Origin: Archangium violaceum
GTDB taxonomy: Bacteria > Myxococcota > Myxococcia > Myxococcales > Myxococcaceae
Assembly (NCBI RefSeq): GCF_016887565.1
Contig: NZ_CP069396.1
Location: 6,554,001-6,618,000, forward strand
Length of the DNA stretch: 64,000 nucleotides
Reading direction: 5' to 3'
A program made the translations under genes and the position numbers. This document shows positions 2,356 through 62,865 of this stretch, in pieces. The notes under the pieces were generated by a model, which was not told the origin of the DNA, made no database searches, and saw nothing but the letters and a program-made list of their open reading frames with translations. Every line of letters starts with the position of its first letter. Positions within the stretch are counted from its first letter, which is position 1.

Positions 2356-3279
2356 TTATTTAGCGTTCTTGAAAATGTTCATCACGTCCTTCAGCAGCTT
2401 CACGGACTCGTCGTGCGGGCGCTGGAAGGCATTGCGGCCCATGATCGAGCCGAAACCGCCGCCGGCGGCGATCTGACGGATCTCCTCGAGCAGGGCCTCG
2501 GTGGTCTTGGACTCGCCACCGGAGAAGATCACGATGCGCTTTCCGTTGAAGGCGGATTTCACGACATCGCGGATCCGCTCTTCCATGGTCTTGGTGGGGA
2601 TCTTGTGCGCCTCGTAGACCTTCTTGGCCTCGGGCTGCTCCAGGAAGTCCTTGGGCGGCTTGACCTTGATGATGTGGGCGCCGAGCTGGGCGCTGATCTG
2701 CGCGGCGTAGGAGATGACGTCGATGGCCTGCTCGCCTTCCTTGGAGATGCTACCGCGCGGGTAGGCCCAGAGGACCGTGGGGAGGCCGTAGTCCTTGGCC
2801 TCGGCGATCAGGTCGCGCAGGGCCTCGTACTGCTCGTTGCGGGCGCCGGAGCCCGGGTAGATGGTGAAGCCGATGGCCGAGCAACCCAGGCGCACCGCGT
2901 CCTTCACGGAGCCCGTCACCGCGGACATGGGGTGCTCGGGCTTGCCCAGGGTGTCCGAGTTGTTGAGCTTGAGGATCAGCGGGATCTCACCCAGGTACTT
3001 GCCGGCCACGGCCTCCAGGAAGCCCAGGGGGGCGGCGTAGGCATTGCAGCCCGTCTCGATGGCCAGCTGGATGTGGTAGTCCGGATCATATCCGGCGGGG
3101 TTGGGAGCGAAGGAACGGGCCGGGCCGTGCTCGAAGCCCTGATCCACCGGGAGGATCACCAGCTTGCCGGTGCCGGCCAGCGTGCCGGTGTTGAGCAGAC
3201 GGGCCAGGTTGGTCAGCGTGCCCGGAGTGTCGGACGGGTACCACGAGAGGATCTGCTTGACGCGATCGGTATAAGCCAT
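2356..3279 (-). CDS. Class I fructose-bisphosphate aldolase (DhnA/FbaB type)
   Basis: Cleaves fructose-1,6-bisphosphate to DHAP and glyceraldehyde-3-phosphate through a Schiff base, in central carbon metabolism in the cytosol. The 307-residue TIM-barrel protein shows LPVDQGFEHGP near the N-terminus, GADHII-like GAHIIKVKPP carrying the candidate Schiff-base Lys, and the phosphate-binding IVIFSGGESK near residue 235. These match the DhnA (archaeal-type class I) family rather than the zinc class II enzymes. The ATG at 3279 is preceded by GAGGAG about 6 nt upstream; the open frame reaches further to 3432, but that part is Arg/Ser/Pro-rich and unlike a protein. A terminator follows at 2286-2320, so the gene is probably monocistronic. 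Confidence 0.9.
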   Translation of the reverse strand: MAYTDRVKQILSWYPSDTPGTLTNLARLLNTGTLAGTGKLVILPVDQGFEHGPARSFAPNPAGYDPDYHIQLAIETGCNAYAAPLGFLEAVAGKYLGEIPLILKLNNSDTLGKPEHPMSAVTGSVKDAVRLGCSAIGFTIYPGSGARNEQYEALRDLIAEAKDYGLPTVLWAYPRGSISKEGEQAIDVISYAAQISAQLGAHIIKVKPPKDFLEQPEAKKVYEAHKIPTKTMEERIRDVVKSAFNGKRIVIFSGGESKTTEALLEEIRQIAAGGGFGSIMGRNAFQRPHDESVKLLKDVMNIFKNAK

Positions 3280-3497
3280 GTGGCTCCTCGATGGGGGGGC
3301 GGGACGCCCCTTGACTTGGCGGCGCGGATTCTGCCCATGCGAGGGCCCAGGACCAAGCAGATCATGCGATTCTTCGTCGCGGCGCGAACGCTCGGGCGGA
3401 GAGATGCATGATCCCGATGACGGAAGCGTCACGAAGGTGGATGCTGCGCCGCTCGAAACGCCCCGCCGGGAGTGGGGCCGCTGGGAGATGGCGAGTG

Positions 3498-5081
3498 GTG
3501 AACCGCAGAGAAGCGCAACGTGTCATGGGAGTGGGGTTGATGCTCGCGGCCACGCTGGCGGGAGCGCAGATCGCACCGGCTCCGACGCCCACGCCCTCGG
3601 TCCCGTCGTCGGGCACGGCGGCACCGGCCTCGCAGGCGGCGCCCCAGGCCACGCCGCAGGCTCCCGCCGGGGGCCTGGAGACGCCCCAGGCCCCGGACGT
3701 GGCGCCCCAGGTGGGTGAGACGGCCCAGGAGGCGGTGCCGGAGCAGGGACCGCCCTCGGCGCCCGGGAAGACGAAGGCGGAGCCGCTCACGCTGGAGCAG
3801 CTCGTCCAGCGCGCGCGCAAGCAGGACGCGAGGGTGGAGGAGGCGCGGGCGGAGCTGCGCCGGCTGGAGGCGCTGCTGCGCCAGGCGCGCTGGGCCTGGT
3901 TCCCCAAGTTCGAGACGACGGTGGGCGTGGGAGGCCCGGTCCCCGAGGCGCGCAACGACGGCCTGGGCGGGCCGCCGACGACGGAGGCCTCGCTCGAGGG
4001 CGACTGGAGGTTCGGCCGGATGGGGTTCACCGCCTTCATCGAGGCCAACGCGGTGCTGCCGCTCTACACGTTCGGGAAACTGCGGGCGCTGGAGAAGGCG
4101 GCGGAGCAGGGGCCGGTCATCGGCAAGGCGCTGAAGGAGCGCGCGCAGGACGAGGCGGGATTCCAGGCGGCACAAGCCTTCTTCGGCTACCAGCTGGCGC
4201 GCTCGGGGCTGGCGCAGCTCGACGAGACGTCGAAGCGGCTGGAGGACGCGGCGAAACAGCTGCAGAAGATGATGGACGAGAAGTCCGAGCAGGTGTCGAA
4301 GATGGACCTGTACAAGGTCGGCTTCTTCCGCAACCAGCTCGAGGCGCGCCGGGCCCAGGCCGAGCAGGGCCGGCAGCTCGCGCTGGCCGCCATCCGTCTG
4401 CTGGCGGGCACTCCGCCGGGGGAATCGGTGCAGGTGGTCGAGGCGGAGCTGGAGCCGGAAGGGGAGGTGAAGGCGCCGACGCTGGAGGAAGTGCTGGCGA
4501 CGGCGGAGCAGAAGCGGCCGGAGCTCGTGGGCATCGCCGCGGGCGTCGTCGCGCGCGAGCAGGAGGTGTTCATCCGCGAGCGCATGTTCTATCCGGACAT
4601 CGGGCTCGCGGGCTTCCTGACGCTTCGGTACACCTCGAGCGCGACGACGCAGAAGGATCCCTTCGCCTTCGATCCGTACAACCAGCGCGAGGCGGGAGTG
4701 GGGCTGGTGGCGCGCGGCACCTTCGACATTCCGGTGAAGCAGTCGCAGCTGGATCAGTCGCGGGCGGAGCTGGACAAGCTGAAGGCGCAGCAGCGGCTGT
4801 TGCAGGCGGCCATCCGCCTGGAGGTGACGAAGGCGCACGGAGACCTGGTGGCGGCGCTGGAGCGGGCGAGGGTGCTCACCCAGGCGGAGCGGGACGCGCG
4901 GCGCTGGGCCACGGCGGCCATGGCGGCGTTCGATCTCGGCACCAGCGGCACGAGGGATTTGATCGAATCCTTCACGGCGCTCGCCCAGTCGTCGGCCGAC
5001 CGGGCGCAGAGCTGGCACGACTTCCAGGTCGCCCAGGCGGAGCTGGCACGGGTCACCGGCACCACGCCCCGGGAGCCGTGA
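3498..5081 (+). CDS. TolC-family outer-membrane efflux channel protein
   Basis: Outer-membrane factor of about 527 residues forming the exit duct of a tripartite exporter. A signal peptide follows the GTG start (basic NRREAQR, hydrophobic VMGVGLMLAATLAG, cleavage near AGA-Q), then a Pro/Ala/Gln-rich linker to about residue 95. Two long alpha-hairpin OEP repeats follow, the first beginning LTLEQLVQRA and the second around GTFDIPVKQSQ, with heptad-rich helices and a C-terminal segment ending ELARVTGT. GTG codons at 3495 and 3498 lie 8-10 nt after GGGAG; the frame is open back to 3408. It is followed 67 bp later by an MlaC-like gene, so the pair may serve envelope lipid or solute export. No inner-membrane partner is adjacent. 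Confidence 0.85.
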   Translation: MNRREAQRVMGVGLMLAATLAGAQIAPAPTPTPSVPSSGTAAPASQAAPQATPQAPAGGLETPQAPDVAPQVGETAQEAVPEQGPPSAPGKTKAEPLTLEQLVQRARKQDARVEEARAELRRLEALLRQARWAWFPKFETTVGVGGPVPEARNDGLGGPPTTEASLEGDWRFGRMGFTAFIEANAVLPLYTFGKLRALEKAAEQGPVIGKALKERAQDEAGFQAAQAFFGYQLARSGLAQLDETSKRLEDAAKQLQKMMDEKSEQVSKMDLYKVGFFRNQLEARRAQAEQGRQLALAAIRLLAGTPPGESVQVVEAELEPEGEVKAPTLEEVLATAEQKRPELVGIAAGVVAREQEVFIRERMFYPDIGLAGFLTLRYTSSATTQKDPFAFDPYNQREAGVGLVARGTFDIPVKQSQLDQSRAELDKLKAQQRLLQAAIRLEVTKAHGDLVAALERARVLTQAERDARRWATAAMAAFDLGTSGTRDLIESFTALAQSSADRAQSWHDFQVAQAELARVTGTTPREP

Positions 5082-59142: not shown

Positions 59143-59919
59143 ATGGCGGAATTCAAGGTCGACGCACGAGGACCCATCGAGATCTGGACCATCGACGGAG
59201 AGGGGCGGCGCAACGCCATCAGCCGGGCCATGCTGAAGGAGCTGGAGGAGATGGTGGCGCGCGTCTCGCGGGGTCACGACACGCGAGCGGTGGTGATCAC
59301 CGGGGCGGGGGACAAGGCGTTCTGCGCGGGGGCGGATCTGAAGGAGCGCTCGACGATGGGCGAGCCCGAGGTGCGCGCCTTCCTGGACGGGCTGCGGCGC
59401 ACGTTCCGGGCCATCGAGAAGAGCGACTGCGTGTTCATCGCGGCGGTCAACGGGGCGGCGTTCGGCGGAGGGACGGAGCTGGCGCTCTCGTGCGACCTGC
59501 GGGTGGCGGCACCAGCGGCCGAGCTGGGGCTGACGGAGGTGAAGCTGGGCATCATCCCCGGGGGCGGTGGAACGCAGCGGTTGACGCGGCTGGTGGGGCC
59601 GGGGCGGGCGAAGGATCTCATCCTCACCGGAAGGCGCGTGAACGCGGCGGAGGCCTTCAGCATCGGGCTGGTGAACCGGCTGGCGCCGGAGGGGCACCTG
59701 CTGGACACGGCGTACTCCATGGCGGAGAGCATCGTGGAGAACGCGCCGATCGCGGTGGCCACGGCCAAGCACGCCATCGACGAGGGCATGTCACTGGAGC
59801 TGGACGAGGCGCTCGCACTGGAGCTGCGGCAGTACGAGAAGGTGCTCGCCACGGAGGACCGGCTGGAGGGCCTCAAGGCCTTCGCCGAGAAGCGCAAGCC
59901 CGTCTACAAGGGGCGCTGA
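59143..59919 (+). CDS. Enoyl-CoA hydratase/isomerase family (methylglutaconyl-CoA hydratase-like)
   Basis: A 258-residue crotonase adding water to an enoyl-CoA. The oxyanion loop is CAGADL (61-66) and [14 protein letters not shown]. Both catalytic acids are present, Glu112 and Glu132, consistent with hydratase activity. [19 protein letters not shown] resembles human AUH/methylglutaconyl-CoA hydratase, which would fit leucine catabolism, but general enoyl-CoA hydratases share much of this. GGGAGGG lies 5 nt before the ATG. The stop lies 6 bp before the tRNA-like helix at 59926. Confidence 0.88.
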
Positions 59920-59925
59920 GAGGGG

Positions 59926-59960
59926 CGGGGAGACAGGTTCAAATCCTGTCTCCCCGACCA
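59926..59960 (+). other. tRNA minihelix-like sequence (acceptor stem joined to T-arm, ACCA end)
   Basis: Seven nt CGGGGAG (59926-59932) pair perfectly with CTCCCCG (59950-59956). Directly inside, ACAGG (59933-59937) pairs with CCTGT (59945-59949) around the T-loop TTCAAAT. The helix ends in discriminator A plus CCA (59957-59960). This is exactly a tRNA without D- and anticodon arms. It may be a deleted tRNA, an attachment-site remnant or a functional tRNA mimic. Unlike the two tRNA-Ala genes here, CCA is encoded. Confidence 0.75.
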
Positions 59961-60745
59961 TGCGCCCGCGTCCGAGTGGCTGTCTTCTTCCCAGCGCTCC
60001 GCTTTCTGGCCGGTGCGGGCTTCGACTTCGCGGCCTCCATCGCCTTCCGGGCCTCGGTCTTCTCGCCTTTGCGGAGCGCGAGCGCCGCGGCGATCCACTC
60101 CGGCGCGTAGCTCGAGGTGCAGCCCTTCGGGACCGGTCGCGGGTCCCACCGGCCGAGGCGTTCGCCGATGGCGATGGCCTCCGAGGTGTACGCGGGCAGG
60201 TGGAGGCCGATCCAGACCAGGCAGAAGTTGATGCCCTCCTTCACCCGGTACGGCGCGTCCGGCAGCTCACGCTCGATGCGCGCGAGCGCCGCGCCAACGT
60301 CGAGATCCTTCGCGAGTCCGCGCGCGATGCGCCCGGCGAGGATCTTCCATCCGGCGCGGCGAGGAAGCTCCGCGCTGCCATCCCTCCATCTTTCCTGGAG
60401 GCGCTCGGCGATGGGCGCTGCCACGAACACGCGTCCGACGAGCTCGTCGACCAGGGTCGGATTGGAGAGCGGCTCGAGGAGCCCGCGCGCCTCTTTCTCG
60501 GTGAGCGCCGCGGGTTCGAGCAGCATACACGCGAGGATCCGCGCCTCGTGATTTCCGGTCGCCCACAGCTCCAGGCCGAGCGCGTGGTTTGTCCCGAGCG
60601 CCGCTGCGAGAGCACGGATCTTCCCGAGGAGTACGCCGAAGACGTTGTCGCCCGCACCGTCGCGCACGTATCGCTGGCGCAGCTTCTCGTCGCCCTGGCT
60701 CTCGAGCTGCTTCATCACCTGGGAAAGCGTCATCGGTCTCGGCAT
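59939..60745 (-). CDS. AlkD-like DNA alkylation repair protein
   Basis: A 268-residue helical protein of the AlkD/ARM-repeat glycosylase family, which would excise alkylated bases. The pattern GLELWATGNHEARILACMLL near residue 50 and the HEAT-like repeats to about 235 are typical. The C-terminus is Lys/Arg-rich, with a stop codon that falls inside the T-loop of the tRNA-like helix (59939-59941), so its last ~6 residues come from that sequence. ATG 60745 has GAGGTG about 8 nt upstream; ATG 60733 is also possible. The gene is isolated and convergent with the hydratase gene. Confidence 0.8.
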   Translation of the reverse strand: MPRPMTLSQVMKQLESQGDEKLRQRYVRDGAGDNVFGVLLGKIRALAAALGTNHALGLELWATGNHEARILACMLLEPAALTEKEARGLLEPLSNPTLVDELVGRVFVAAPIAERLQERWRDGSAELPRRAGWKILAGRIARGLAKDLDVGAALARIERELPDAPYRVKEGINFCLVWIGLHLPAYTSEAIAIGERLGRWDPRPVPKGCTSSYAPEWIAAALALRKGEKTEARKAMEAAKSKPAPARKRSAGKKTATRTRAHGRGDRI

Positions 60746-60816
60746 GCGGGAACACCTCGGCGGATGGATGAGGGAAGGGAGGAAGGGTCGAGCCTGGGAC
60801 GTATAGAACGGGAACG

Positions 60817-62865
60817 TCAAGGCTTGCCGGAAGCCTGTGCCGCCTGCTTCTCGAAGACGTAGCGCTGCTGGGGCAGCTCGAGCACGAGCGTGGTGCCCCC
60901 CGCCTCCTGCTTGGACTGGAAATCGAAGCCGGCCAGGGGCGGGTCCATCAGGATGAGCGTGCGCGAGCCGTCGTTCTCCTGCTTCTCGCCCACGCTGCTG
61001 CGCCACTCGCCCGCGTCGAACACCGCGCCCGCGCCCTCGACGCGCAGGGTGACGCGCCCGAGGCCCTCGTTGTGCCAGGTGCCGGCCAGCGTCTTCAGCC
61101 ACTCCAGGTCCGGCTTCACGCGGATGTCGGCCATCCCCTTCTCGAGCTGCTCGCGCCGGTTCTTCAGGGCGAAGTCGAGCTGGGTGCGCGCCTCGTCGCG
61201 GCCGTCGAAGAGGAGCTCCAGGAACTTGCGGCGGACGGCGCTGCGGAAGGGGCCATCGCCCTGGACGTTGGTGAGGAGGACGACGCCCACGTTGGCATCG
61301 GGCAGGAAGAACATGTTCGAGCTGAAGCCCAGCGTGTTGCCGCCGTGGTGGATGAGGCGGGCGCCGTGGTCCTCGCCCACCATGAGCCCGAGCCCGTAGC
61401 TCATCGTGTCGGACATCTTCACCTGGGGCTCGCGGCGCGCGAGCAGGTTGGCCTCGGAGACGAGCTGCTGGCCCTCGGGTGTGCGGCCCTTGGAGAGCTC
61501 GAGCATCACGTAGCGCTCCATGTCCCGGAGGTTGGACCAGGCGCCGCCTGCGGGGCGGACGGGGACGACGGCCTCTTCGACGGACAGGGGCAGGGGCACG
61601 TATTCGAACGTCGCCGTCATCCCGTGCGGCGAGGCGTGCTCGAGCTTCGCGGCGCGGGCGAAGTCGAAGGTGGTGGACTTCATGCCGAGCGCATCGAAGA
61701 CGCGCGTCTGCATCACGCGGTCATACGCCTGGCCGAGCGGGAGCCCGGGCTCGGCGGCGTGCGCGGCCATGTAGCCACCGGCCGTCACCATGGGGTTGCT
61801 GTACTGGTACGTCTCGCCGATGCGGGTGGTGGGCTTCATCCGGCGCATCTCGGAGATGCGCTGCTCGCCGGTGACGCCCGCGTACTCGAAGAGCATCTCC
61901 ATGTCCTGGCGGGGCATGCCGGTGCACGCGCACACGGTGTTCTGCACGGTGAGCTTCTTCGTCACCTCGGCATCGGCGAGCGAGAAGTCGGGCAGGAGCT
62001 GGGTTGCCGGGGTCTTCCAGGTGAAGAGGCCCTCGTCCACCAGGCGCGCCATCATCAGCGTGGTGAGCGACTTGCTCGTGGAGCCGATGAGGAAGAGCGT
62101 CCGCGGCGTCACGGGCTCCGGCTTGCCGAGCTCCCGCACCCCGAAGCCCTTCTCGTAGAGGACCTGATTGCCCTGGACGACGGCGACGGCCACACCCGGA
62201 ATCTTCATCGTCGCGCGAGCCTGCTCGAGGAAGGACTCGAAGGACCGGAGCCGCTCGGGGGTGAGGGGAAGCGGGGCCTTTCCGGCGAAGGACTCCTCGG
62301 AGAGCCGGGCGGACTTGAAGCCGAGGAGGACCTGATTGGCCTGGGCACCGCGGCGCTCCATGGCGGCGGCGGCACCATCCAGGAGGATGACGTAGTTGGT
62401 GTCACCCTTGCGCCGCGCGAGGCCGACGATGACGCGCGACTCCTGCGCGGGAGGCTCGTAGGTGTTCTGGAAGACCTCGTCCCAGCCGTCCTGCGCGGGC
62501 GGGTGGGCCGAGTGCATCACGGGAAGGGCGAAGCCGGGCTGGGTCTGCTTCCAGGCCTCGGCGAGAGCGCGCTCGGCGGACGGGCCGGGCACCTCCAGCA
62601 GGGTGAGACGGAGCTGCCGCTCGGGGTCCTCGAGCAGCAGACGGCCCTGGTCCTCGGTGACGTACCACCCGGCGGACACGGTGAAGGGCGTGCTCGAGGC
62701 CGTCTTCATGGGCGTGGCCGCGTCGAGCTTCAGGGCCTGGACGGTGGTGGGCGAGGGCGCGGGAGCGGTGGCCTGGGGCGCCGGGGCGGAGGAGGGTGGA
62801 GCGGCGGTGGTCGTCGCCGCGGTACACGAGGTGAGCAGCAGAAGGGGAAGGGCGCCCAGGCGCAT
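60817..62865 (-). CDS. Serine beta-lactamase-like lipoprotein (class C/PBP fold)
   Basis: A 682-residue lipoprotein (signal MRLGALPLLLLTSC, lipobox LTSC, Cys14). An N-terminal domain of about 190 residues is unique. The beta-lactamase-related fold (about 195-560) has SxxK in GSTSKSL (Ser262, Lys265), Tyr-x-Asn in YQYSNPM, and HHGGNTLG in place of KTG. The C-terminal ~110 residues form a beta domain. Members act as esterases, DD-peptidases or D-amino-acid peptidases; true beta-lactamase activity is only one option. GGAG lies 11-12 nt before ATG 62865; the frame is open to 62970. It lies 124 bp after the MBL gene in the same direction. Confidence 0.85.
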   Translation of the reverse strand: MRLGALPLLLLTSCTAATTTAAPPSSAPAPQATAPAPSPTTVQALKLDAATPMKTASSTPFTVSAGWYVTEDQGRLLLEDPERQLRLTLLEVPGPSAERALAEAWKQTQPGFALPVMHSAHPPAQDGWDEVFQNTYEPPAQESRVIVGLARRKGDTNYVILLDGAAAAMERRGAQANQVLLGFKSARLSEESFAGKAPLPLTPERLRSFESFLEQARATMKIPGVAVAVVQGNQVLYEKGFGVRELGKPEPVTPRTLFLIGSTSKSLTTLMMARLVDEGLFTWKTPATQLLPDFSLADAEVTKKLTVQNTVCACTGMPRQDMEMLFEYAGVTGEQRISEMRRMKPTTRIGETYQYSNPMVTAGGYMAAHAAEPGLPLGQAYDRVMQTRVFDALGMKSTTFDFARAAKLEHASPHGMTATFEYVPLPLSVEEAVVPVRPAGGAWSNLRDMERYVMLELSKGRTPEGQQLVSEANLLARREPQVKMSDTMSYGLGLMVGEDHGARLIHHGGNTLGFSSNMFFLPDANVGVVLLTNVQGDGPFRSAVRRKFLELLFDGRDEARTQLDFALKNRREQLEKGMADIRVKPDLEWLKTLAGTWHNEGLGRVTLRVEGAGAVFDAGEWRSSVGEKQENDGSRTLILMDPPLAGFDFQSKQEAGGTTLVLELPQQRYVFEKQAAQASGKP

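Follow-up and report, generated by a model that had tools for sequence, protein, structure and literature searches.

A hairpin resembling the top half of tRNA-Pro behind a hydratase gene of Archangium violaceum: a likely attachment-site core of integrative islands

The window, the stretch of 64,000 nucleotides of Archangium violaceum DNA that was analysed, contains an enoyl-CoA hydratase/isomerase gene followed by a hairpin with the layout of a tRNA top half and by an AlkD-like gene on the opposite strand (Table 1). The TGA stop codon of the hydratase gene occupies 59917-59919 and the hairpin starts 6 nt downstream of it; the perfect 12-bp helix, the TTCAAAT loop and the ACCA end reported in the preliminary description are all confirmed. 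The predicted RNA fold of 59917-59966 has an energy of -28.8 kcal/mol and a z-score of -4.5 against shuffled sequences (1 of 200 shuffles was equally stable), and for 59922-59960 the z-score is -5.5. ARAGORN calls no tRNA at 59926-59960, and no Rfam family exceeds its gathering cut-off at the hairpin; at a low threshold, the 12 Rfam matches in 59700-60200 (11 microRNA families and 1 viral stem-loop) all fall far below their cut-offs. A scan of 59700-60900 for intrinsic terminators found none, and the stem lacks a T-run. The window also contains a tandem pair of tRNA-Ala(GGC) genes, at 486-559 and 631-704, with equal Rfam scores.

Table 1. Features at the 3' end of the hydratase gene in the window
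Feature	Position	Strand	Basis or remark
Enoyl-CoA hydratase/isomerase gene, with the hairpin at its 3' end	59143..59919	+	ORF; Pfam ECH_1, E 6e-63
Left arm CGGGGAGACAGG of the putative attachment core	59926-59937	+	Inner 10 bp conserved family-wide
Loop or spacer TTCAAAT, 7 nt	59938-59944	+	Equals the T-loop of tRNA-Pro; proposed crossover region
Right arm CCTGTCTCCCCG	59945-59956	+	Identical to the T-stem and acceptor 3' strand of tRNA-Pro(CGG)
ACCA	59957-59960	+	Corresponds to the discriminator base and CCA of a tRNA; not conserved across the family
28 nt matching the tRNA-Pro(CGG) 3' end plus one base	59934-59961	+	Sequence identity
DNA_alkylation (AlkD-like) gene, 264 aa	59939..60733	-	Pfam PF08713, E 1.2e-16
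Segment homologous to an AlkD-like gene sited elsewhere in relatives	59962..60748	-	Sequence similarity

The exact 17-mer ACAGGTTCAAATCCTGT occurs only once in the 13.2-Mb genome that contains the window, and the 28 nt of 59934-59961 are present in identical form at three other places. The first of these is an intact tRNA-Pro(CGG) gene, in which the 5' acceptor strand is also CGGGGAG; thus, the genome does encode a tRNA that matches the hairpin, over 28 contiguous nt, and identity to the 3' end of a host tRNA, a mark of attachment sites, extends here over the end of tRNA-Pro(CGG) plus one base. The second copy lies near 6.313 Mb, behind a gene; ARAGORN reports a tRNA-Pro at this place, but the sequence looks degenerate and only tRNA-Pro-like. 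A repeat of the tRNA 3' end, some 13 kb downstream of the true tRNA-Pro(CGG) gene, is the third copy, and 6 kb beyond it there is a fourth with 96% identity; both repeats have the appearance of ordinary attachment sites of islands. Beyond the last of the tRNA-Pro att repeats of the window genome, locus L220 (about 2500-5010; G000, about 2.151-2.153 Mb) encodes a tyrosine integrase along with the C-terminal fragment of a close copy.

A search with a 26-nt hairpin pattern, allowing up to 3 mismatches, returned 23 places in all six genomes of the genus (Archangium group). The left side is of the tRNA-Pro type (GGGTCGCAGG) at 9 of these places and of another type at 14, which are spread over five of the six genomes, G001 having the tRNA-Pro type only; the number of hairpin copies per genome of the genus ranges from 0 to 5. 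The family core, which is also present in a sister genus, consists of 10-bp arms GGGAGACAGG/CCTGTCTCCC around a 7-nt loop. With at most 1 mismatch, the pattern is found in 7 of 96 genomes of the family and is confined to two genera. A looser search (8-bp arms, any loop of 3-20 nt) gave matches in 10 of 92 genomes from four genera; the loops are unrelated in those of G056, G111, G015 and G046, and a control search with the pattern reversed matched 3 genomes as well. A family hairpin is also present on a contig of A. violaceum Cb vi76. In broader collections, six stretches of the genome_contigs set match the pattern (one from Archangium and five scattered; this search may omit records close to the window) and one stretch of IMG/VR does, and we judged the scattered matches in both to be chance occurrences or simple terminators; the tRNA-Pro 3' end is found in 10 IMG/VR stretches, two of them on one contig, which we take for ordinary proviral sites.

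In an alignment of 18 members (a copy with a 6-nt loop, two long tRNA-Pro-like forms, the form on contig 307 of G004 and a degenerate TldD copy of G000 were omitted), the inner 10 bp of the arms are nearly invariant and the outer two pairs vary. The left arm starts with A, G or C and mostly continues with GGGGAGACAGG, and arms of this type follow many unrelated genes. The loop begins with TTC in 17 of the 18 members and varies in its last four positions; the T-loop motif TTCRA is present in 15, and ACCA immediately follows the right arm in only 3. Pairing is kept in 89.8% of the alignment cells, without clear covariation. The recurrence of the same 10-bp arms as a family in relatives bears out the earlier view that a chance origin of the hairpin is unlikely, and the proposed check for conservation in relatives has a positive outcome, in two genera, conservation being limited to the inner 10 bp.

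Hairpins of this family are typically located at gene ends. A same-strand stop codon lies no more than 60 nt upstream at 16 of 21 sites, a convergent gene end lies downstream at 12 and both kinds of gene end are found at 8; these sites, namely the cores in the fetched loci with no more than 3 mismatches in two 8-bp arms, include three tRNA-Pro-like forms, two of them long, and are not independent, TldD contributing four of the 16 and the hydratase, a peptidase-like gene and the gene for a 173-aa protein two each. Of 15,200 positions drawn at random from these loci, 392 (2.6%) have the same-strand arrangement, as have 369 (2.4%) in a second draw of 15,200, which also gave 707 convergent ends (4.7%) and 59 cases of both (0.4%); in all these counts, the gene ends are those called by a simple in-house codon scorer. 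The five hairpins without a called same-strand gene end comprise four with a convergent end only and one with neither, and one of the four is the second hydratase copy of G005, which is actually located behind a hydratase fragment. The label "peptidase-like" stands for what we presume from the appearance of the sequence, without a Pfam call.

At three gene ends, those of the peptidase-like, TldD and hydratase genes, synteny breaks at the hairpin and the cargo beyond it differs, although such changed flanks are less telling given that synteny looks poor generally in the genus. At the peptidase-like gene, the sequences of G002 and G004 agree as far as the right arm of the hairpin, differ over the next 1.2-1.3 kb, where each genome has its own cargo, and agree once more beyond it. 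Behind the TldD gene (Pfam PmbA_TldD_3rd), G046 has a 2.9-kb insert directly past the hairpin relative to G052, both genomes being of the sister genus, and no second core was found at the right junction of this insert. The cargo behind hairpins includes genes that match models of defence proteins, PbeA in G002 (E 8e-176) and HEC-05 in G004 (E 1e-63; HEC-05/GmrSD-like), and, behind the peptidase-like gene of G004, a gene for a cyclic-nucleotide-binding protein; downstream of the peptidase-like gene there is also a repeat array with a 126-bp step (L110, 7693-9490), inside the matching part of which the G004 stretch ends.

The hydratase site of G005 and the TldD site of G004 are each followed, about 8 kb downstream, by a second core that bounds an island, and to the left of this second core both genomes have a similar sequence ending in CTCGTCCACG-GGTTCAAATCCTGTC. 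The far end of the hydratase-site island is shared with a tRNA-Pro island over 168 bp (83% identity), and the TldD-site island retains just the last 41 bp (88-93%). A 32-nt pattern of the far end, with no more than 3 mismatches, matches at 20 places, distributed over 12 of the 98 relatives. When 19 of these 20 loci were lined up (L259 was left out), similarity extended over at least about 150 bp in 15, over some 75-114 bp in L257, L258 and L261 and over 41 bp in the TldD copy of G004; the conserved end of about 150 bp (L262, L247, L245, L249-L256) occurs in several genera of the family. The same far end closes tRNA-Pro islands (G004, G027) and tRNA-Asp islands (G003, G040, G033) and is, accordingly, common to islands at gene ends, at tRNA-Pro and at tRNA-Asp; altogether, the tRNA-like 3' ends to which it is joined are of at least three types, tRNA-Asp, tRNA-Pro and the CCCGTCGGGGACA type. 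Islands that share this far end are thus found at tRNA-Asp, at tRNA-Pro and at gene-end hairpins, and the part that switches between them, at the T-loop, is the tRNA-specific 3' half. The tRNA-Asp genes of G003 and G040 are directly followed by a gene for a tyrosine integrase (Pfam Phage_integrase); the integrase genes of these tRNA-Asp islands are at L270, 5116-6261, and L273, 3566-4660. An Imm11 gene is present within the tRNA-Pro island of G004, and the G005 island encodes a 1406-aa protein without Pfam or PADLOC matches. No phage record matched the far end in a blastn search, and no match to a 30-base pattern of it was found in IMG/VR.

Homologues of the hydratase were found in 28 of 30 genomes. 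Among the 3' ends of the gene in 9 genomes, a hairpin no more than 90 nt past an intact hydratase is present only in G000 and G005; the window genome and G005 are alike behind the hydratase through CCTGTCTCC and diverge immediately afterwards. On the other side of the hairpin, similarity to the AlkD-like genes of relatives ends at 59962, the base after the CCA-T of the hairpin, for 5 of 7 relative loci, and at 59979 and 60033 for the others. The AlkD-like gene of the window has had its own last codons replaced, and its stop codon is located inside the hairpin loop. Pairwise comparison of the AlkD loci of the window and of five relatives, without L281, shows similarity confined to about 0.77-0.90 kb around the gene, and the flanks differ. 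Given that so little is shared among the six loci, the AlkD-like gene itself seems to be a moved piece; as judged by sequence comparison, this gene (window; L276-L281) behaves like a moving single gene.

We consider it likely that the hairpin is the attachment-site core of integrative islands that cross over at the tRNA T-loop and that this core has been placed at the 3' ends of protein-coding genes. The core sites of tyrosine recombinases consist of inverted arms around a 6-8-bp spacer, and the hairpin has inverted arms of 10-12 bp around a 7-bp spacer. Under the proposed scheme, the right half, which is the 3' end of tRNA-Pro(CGG), would have been brought by the islands; the left arm is a near-perfect inverted copy of it, producing two arms of 10-12 bp and the 7-bp spacer. 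A tyrosine integrase would join the islands at the hairpins, with strand exchange near the T-loop and the crossover presumably within the spacer. Because the cores are mostly located directly behind stop codons, islands may enter just past the stop codon and leave the gene intact. In tRNA-Pro-like sites, the left arms are graded (AGGGGTCGCAGG, AGGGGACTCAGG, AGGGGAGACAGG), a series that would fit stepwise improvement of the palindrome. In the window, the end of the hydratase gene would be followed by the core and a right half of the tRNA-Pro type, the rest of the island having been lost, and this scar would then have been fused to the truncated and displaced AlkD-like gene. Given the complete tRNA-Pro-type right half and the failure to find a second site, the window copy is probably an attL-like scar rather than an unused site. 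Of the explanations put forward in the preliminary description, the remnant of an attachment site of an integrative element is the one that gains support, from the cargo switches and the common island ends in relatives.

Several observations weigh against an island site. A two-core boundary is present at hairpin sites in two species and absent in the window genome, in which no second core was found within about 17 kb downstream of the hairpin; the 32-nt far-end pattern has 0 matches in this genome. The two hairpin islands of about 8 kb contain no integrase detectable by a PF00589 search over 6 genomes or by tblastn with 8 putative integrase ORFs (one of these queries, L125, looks like a wrong frame), and tblastn with the integrase fragment of the tRNA-Pro island found none inside the hairpin islands either. 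An integrase frame of 413 aa with one in-frame stop codon is located on contig 6 of G005, 7.5 kb from a hairpin. The contig with the tRNA-Pro island of G004 has no integrase in the PF00589 listing, and visual inspection of the tRNA-Pro island of G027 revealed none, so these tRNA-Pro islands offer no pointer to an integrase either. The missing core at the right junction of the G046 insert, the mosaic structure of the G005 locus and the five hairpins without a called same-strand gene end also count against an island site. Finally, the source of the perfect left arm of the palindrome is not accounted for when the hairpin is read as an island core.

The hairpin might instead function at the RNA level in the 3' end of the mRNA, as a transcription stop, a stabilising stem or a substrate for RNase P, RNase Z or the CCA enzyme, and might have spread for its usefulness. 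The very stable stem and the excess of same-strand, convergent and double gene ends over the random positions are in line with such a function, which we nevertheless regard as unlikely given the absence of a T-run and of predicted terminators and the rarity of ACCA among the aligned members. The evidence from pairing is divided: the TldD member of G032 shows a compensating G-C to C-G change and the covariation score was reached by 29 of 500 shuffles, but the other four pairing measures were reached by 74, 147, 53 and 112 of 500, and because shuffles reach them so often, conservation appears to concern the sequence of the arms rather than their pairing. Furthermore, an RNA-level element leaves the common island ends and the cargo switches at the hairpin unexplained. 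A role in RNA mimicry, charging or termination is, therefore, poorly supported, and the suggestion of a functional tRNA mimic or a tRNA-like tag of the mRNA 3' end is weakened by the scarcity of ACCA and of clear covariation, even though TTCRA is widespread.

The likeness to tRNA could also be a matter of descent only, the hairpin being a small dispersed repeat of the REP/MITE kind that is moved by some transposase and has no role in integration. Dispersed hairpins with a common core in only two genera, the lack of an integrase at the hairpin islands and an orientation towards neighbouring genes that is not absolute would all be expected of such a repeat; its low copy number per genome, its mostly single orientation behind genes (16 of 21 sites) and the sharing of its core with the attR sequences of tRNA islands would not, and we find this explanation less probable still. 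An exact internal deletion of a tRNA-Pro gene at the hydratase locus, leaving a pseudogene, is compatible with the agreement of both acceptor strands, the T-arm and ACCA with tRNA-Pro(CGG), but it is highly improbable: left arms almost identical to this one, most of them starting with A or G, occur behind many genes, the longer tRNA-Pro-derived sites have the graded left arms AGGGGTCGCAGG/AGGGGACTCAGG, and ARAGORN detects no tRNA in stretches of 9-20 kb that surround or follow the hydratase gene in 9 further genomes. The left arm is of the family type and need not derive from the 5' end of a tRNA, and the deletion as a unique event was dropped once the hairpin family emerged. Group IIC introns, integron attC sites and REP/IS elements were set aside on anatomy alone (inserts beside the hairpin, ORFs by eye).

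An attachment-site core of this kind can be compared with several known systems. The portions of the Islander report that deal with integration sites (PMC4383910) describe islands and prophages placed in tRNA genes by tyrosine integrases, with a class at the T-loop or the T-acceptor junction and the T-loop as one known crossover place, and finders of this type that seek tRNA fragments pairing with whole tRNA genes. As in tRNA-gene islands, the right half is the 3' end of a tRNA, copies of it bound the islands and insertion is non-destructive; unlike in those islands, the target is a hairpin resembling a tRNA top half, mostly behind protein-coding genes, and the hairpin-site islands have no recognised integrase. 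Some islands have their attB in the 3' end of a protein-coding gene, and the known cases use the sequence of the gene itself. The present sites resemble these in that insertion behind or at the stop codon keeps the gene whole and differ from them in that a tRNA-derived core is common to unrelated genes. The hairpin behind a gene with small cargo is a feature of integron attC sites as well; here, no attC core consensus was seen by eye and the inserts adjoin the hairpin, the comparison being one of anatomy alone. Among myxobacterial systems, the Myxococcus phage Mx8 has tRNA-Asp as its integration target. Its integrase extends across attP, according to a passage of PMC4383910. The likeness lies in a myxobacterial tyrosine-integrase system, two of the integrases described above being located at tRNA-Asp; Mx8 is absent among the best 15 of 1973 phage records matching the tRNA-Asp integrase, and these 15 show 26-29% identity.

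A broader proposal, which we make tentatively and regard as possible rather than probable, is that Archangium-type myxobacteria keep tRNA-Pro-derived symmetric cores behind housekeeping genes as surrogate tRNA T-arms and that these sites additionally receive defence and toxin islands that lack an integrase, delivered by the T-loop integrases of tRNA-Asp and tRNA-Pro islands, which would switch between target tRNAs by swapping nothing but the 3' half of the core. The hairpin cores would then show how a T-loop integrase can change targets, with the far end constant and the tRNA half switched. The core seems to mark a chromosomal entry point of cargo that partly consists of defence genes, and island finders such as Islander would miss a tRNA-derived core moved behind protein-coding genes. 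In the titles and abstract openings of the literature on myxobacterial or Archangium integrase-tRNA islands, pseudo-tRNAs and secondary att sites, subscription papers being largely outside this search, we found no such case, which is weak evidence of novelty.

Two further hydratase loci contain duplicated gene ends. In G005, a 76-bp segment consisting of the gene end and the hairpin is duplicated with 96% identity (L035, 10810-10885 and 12264-12339), which suggests nested gene-end insertions near the hydratase island; because the duplicate lies beyond the proposed attR, this locus appears to be a mosaic. In G008 (L117, 3226-9016), where the hairpin is absent, a second copy of the last 305 bp or so of the hydratase gene lies 4.7 kb downstream; the two copies bracket a cassette of Tox-PAAR, AHH nuclease and Imm11 genes, and the second copy of the hydratase 3' end is fused in frame to another gene.
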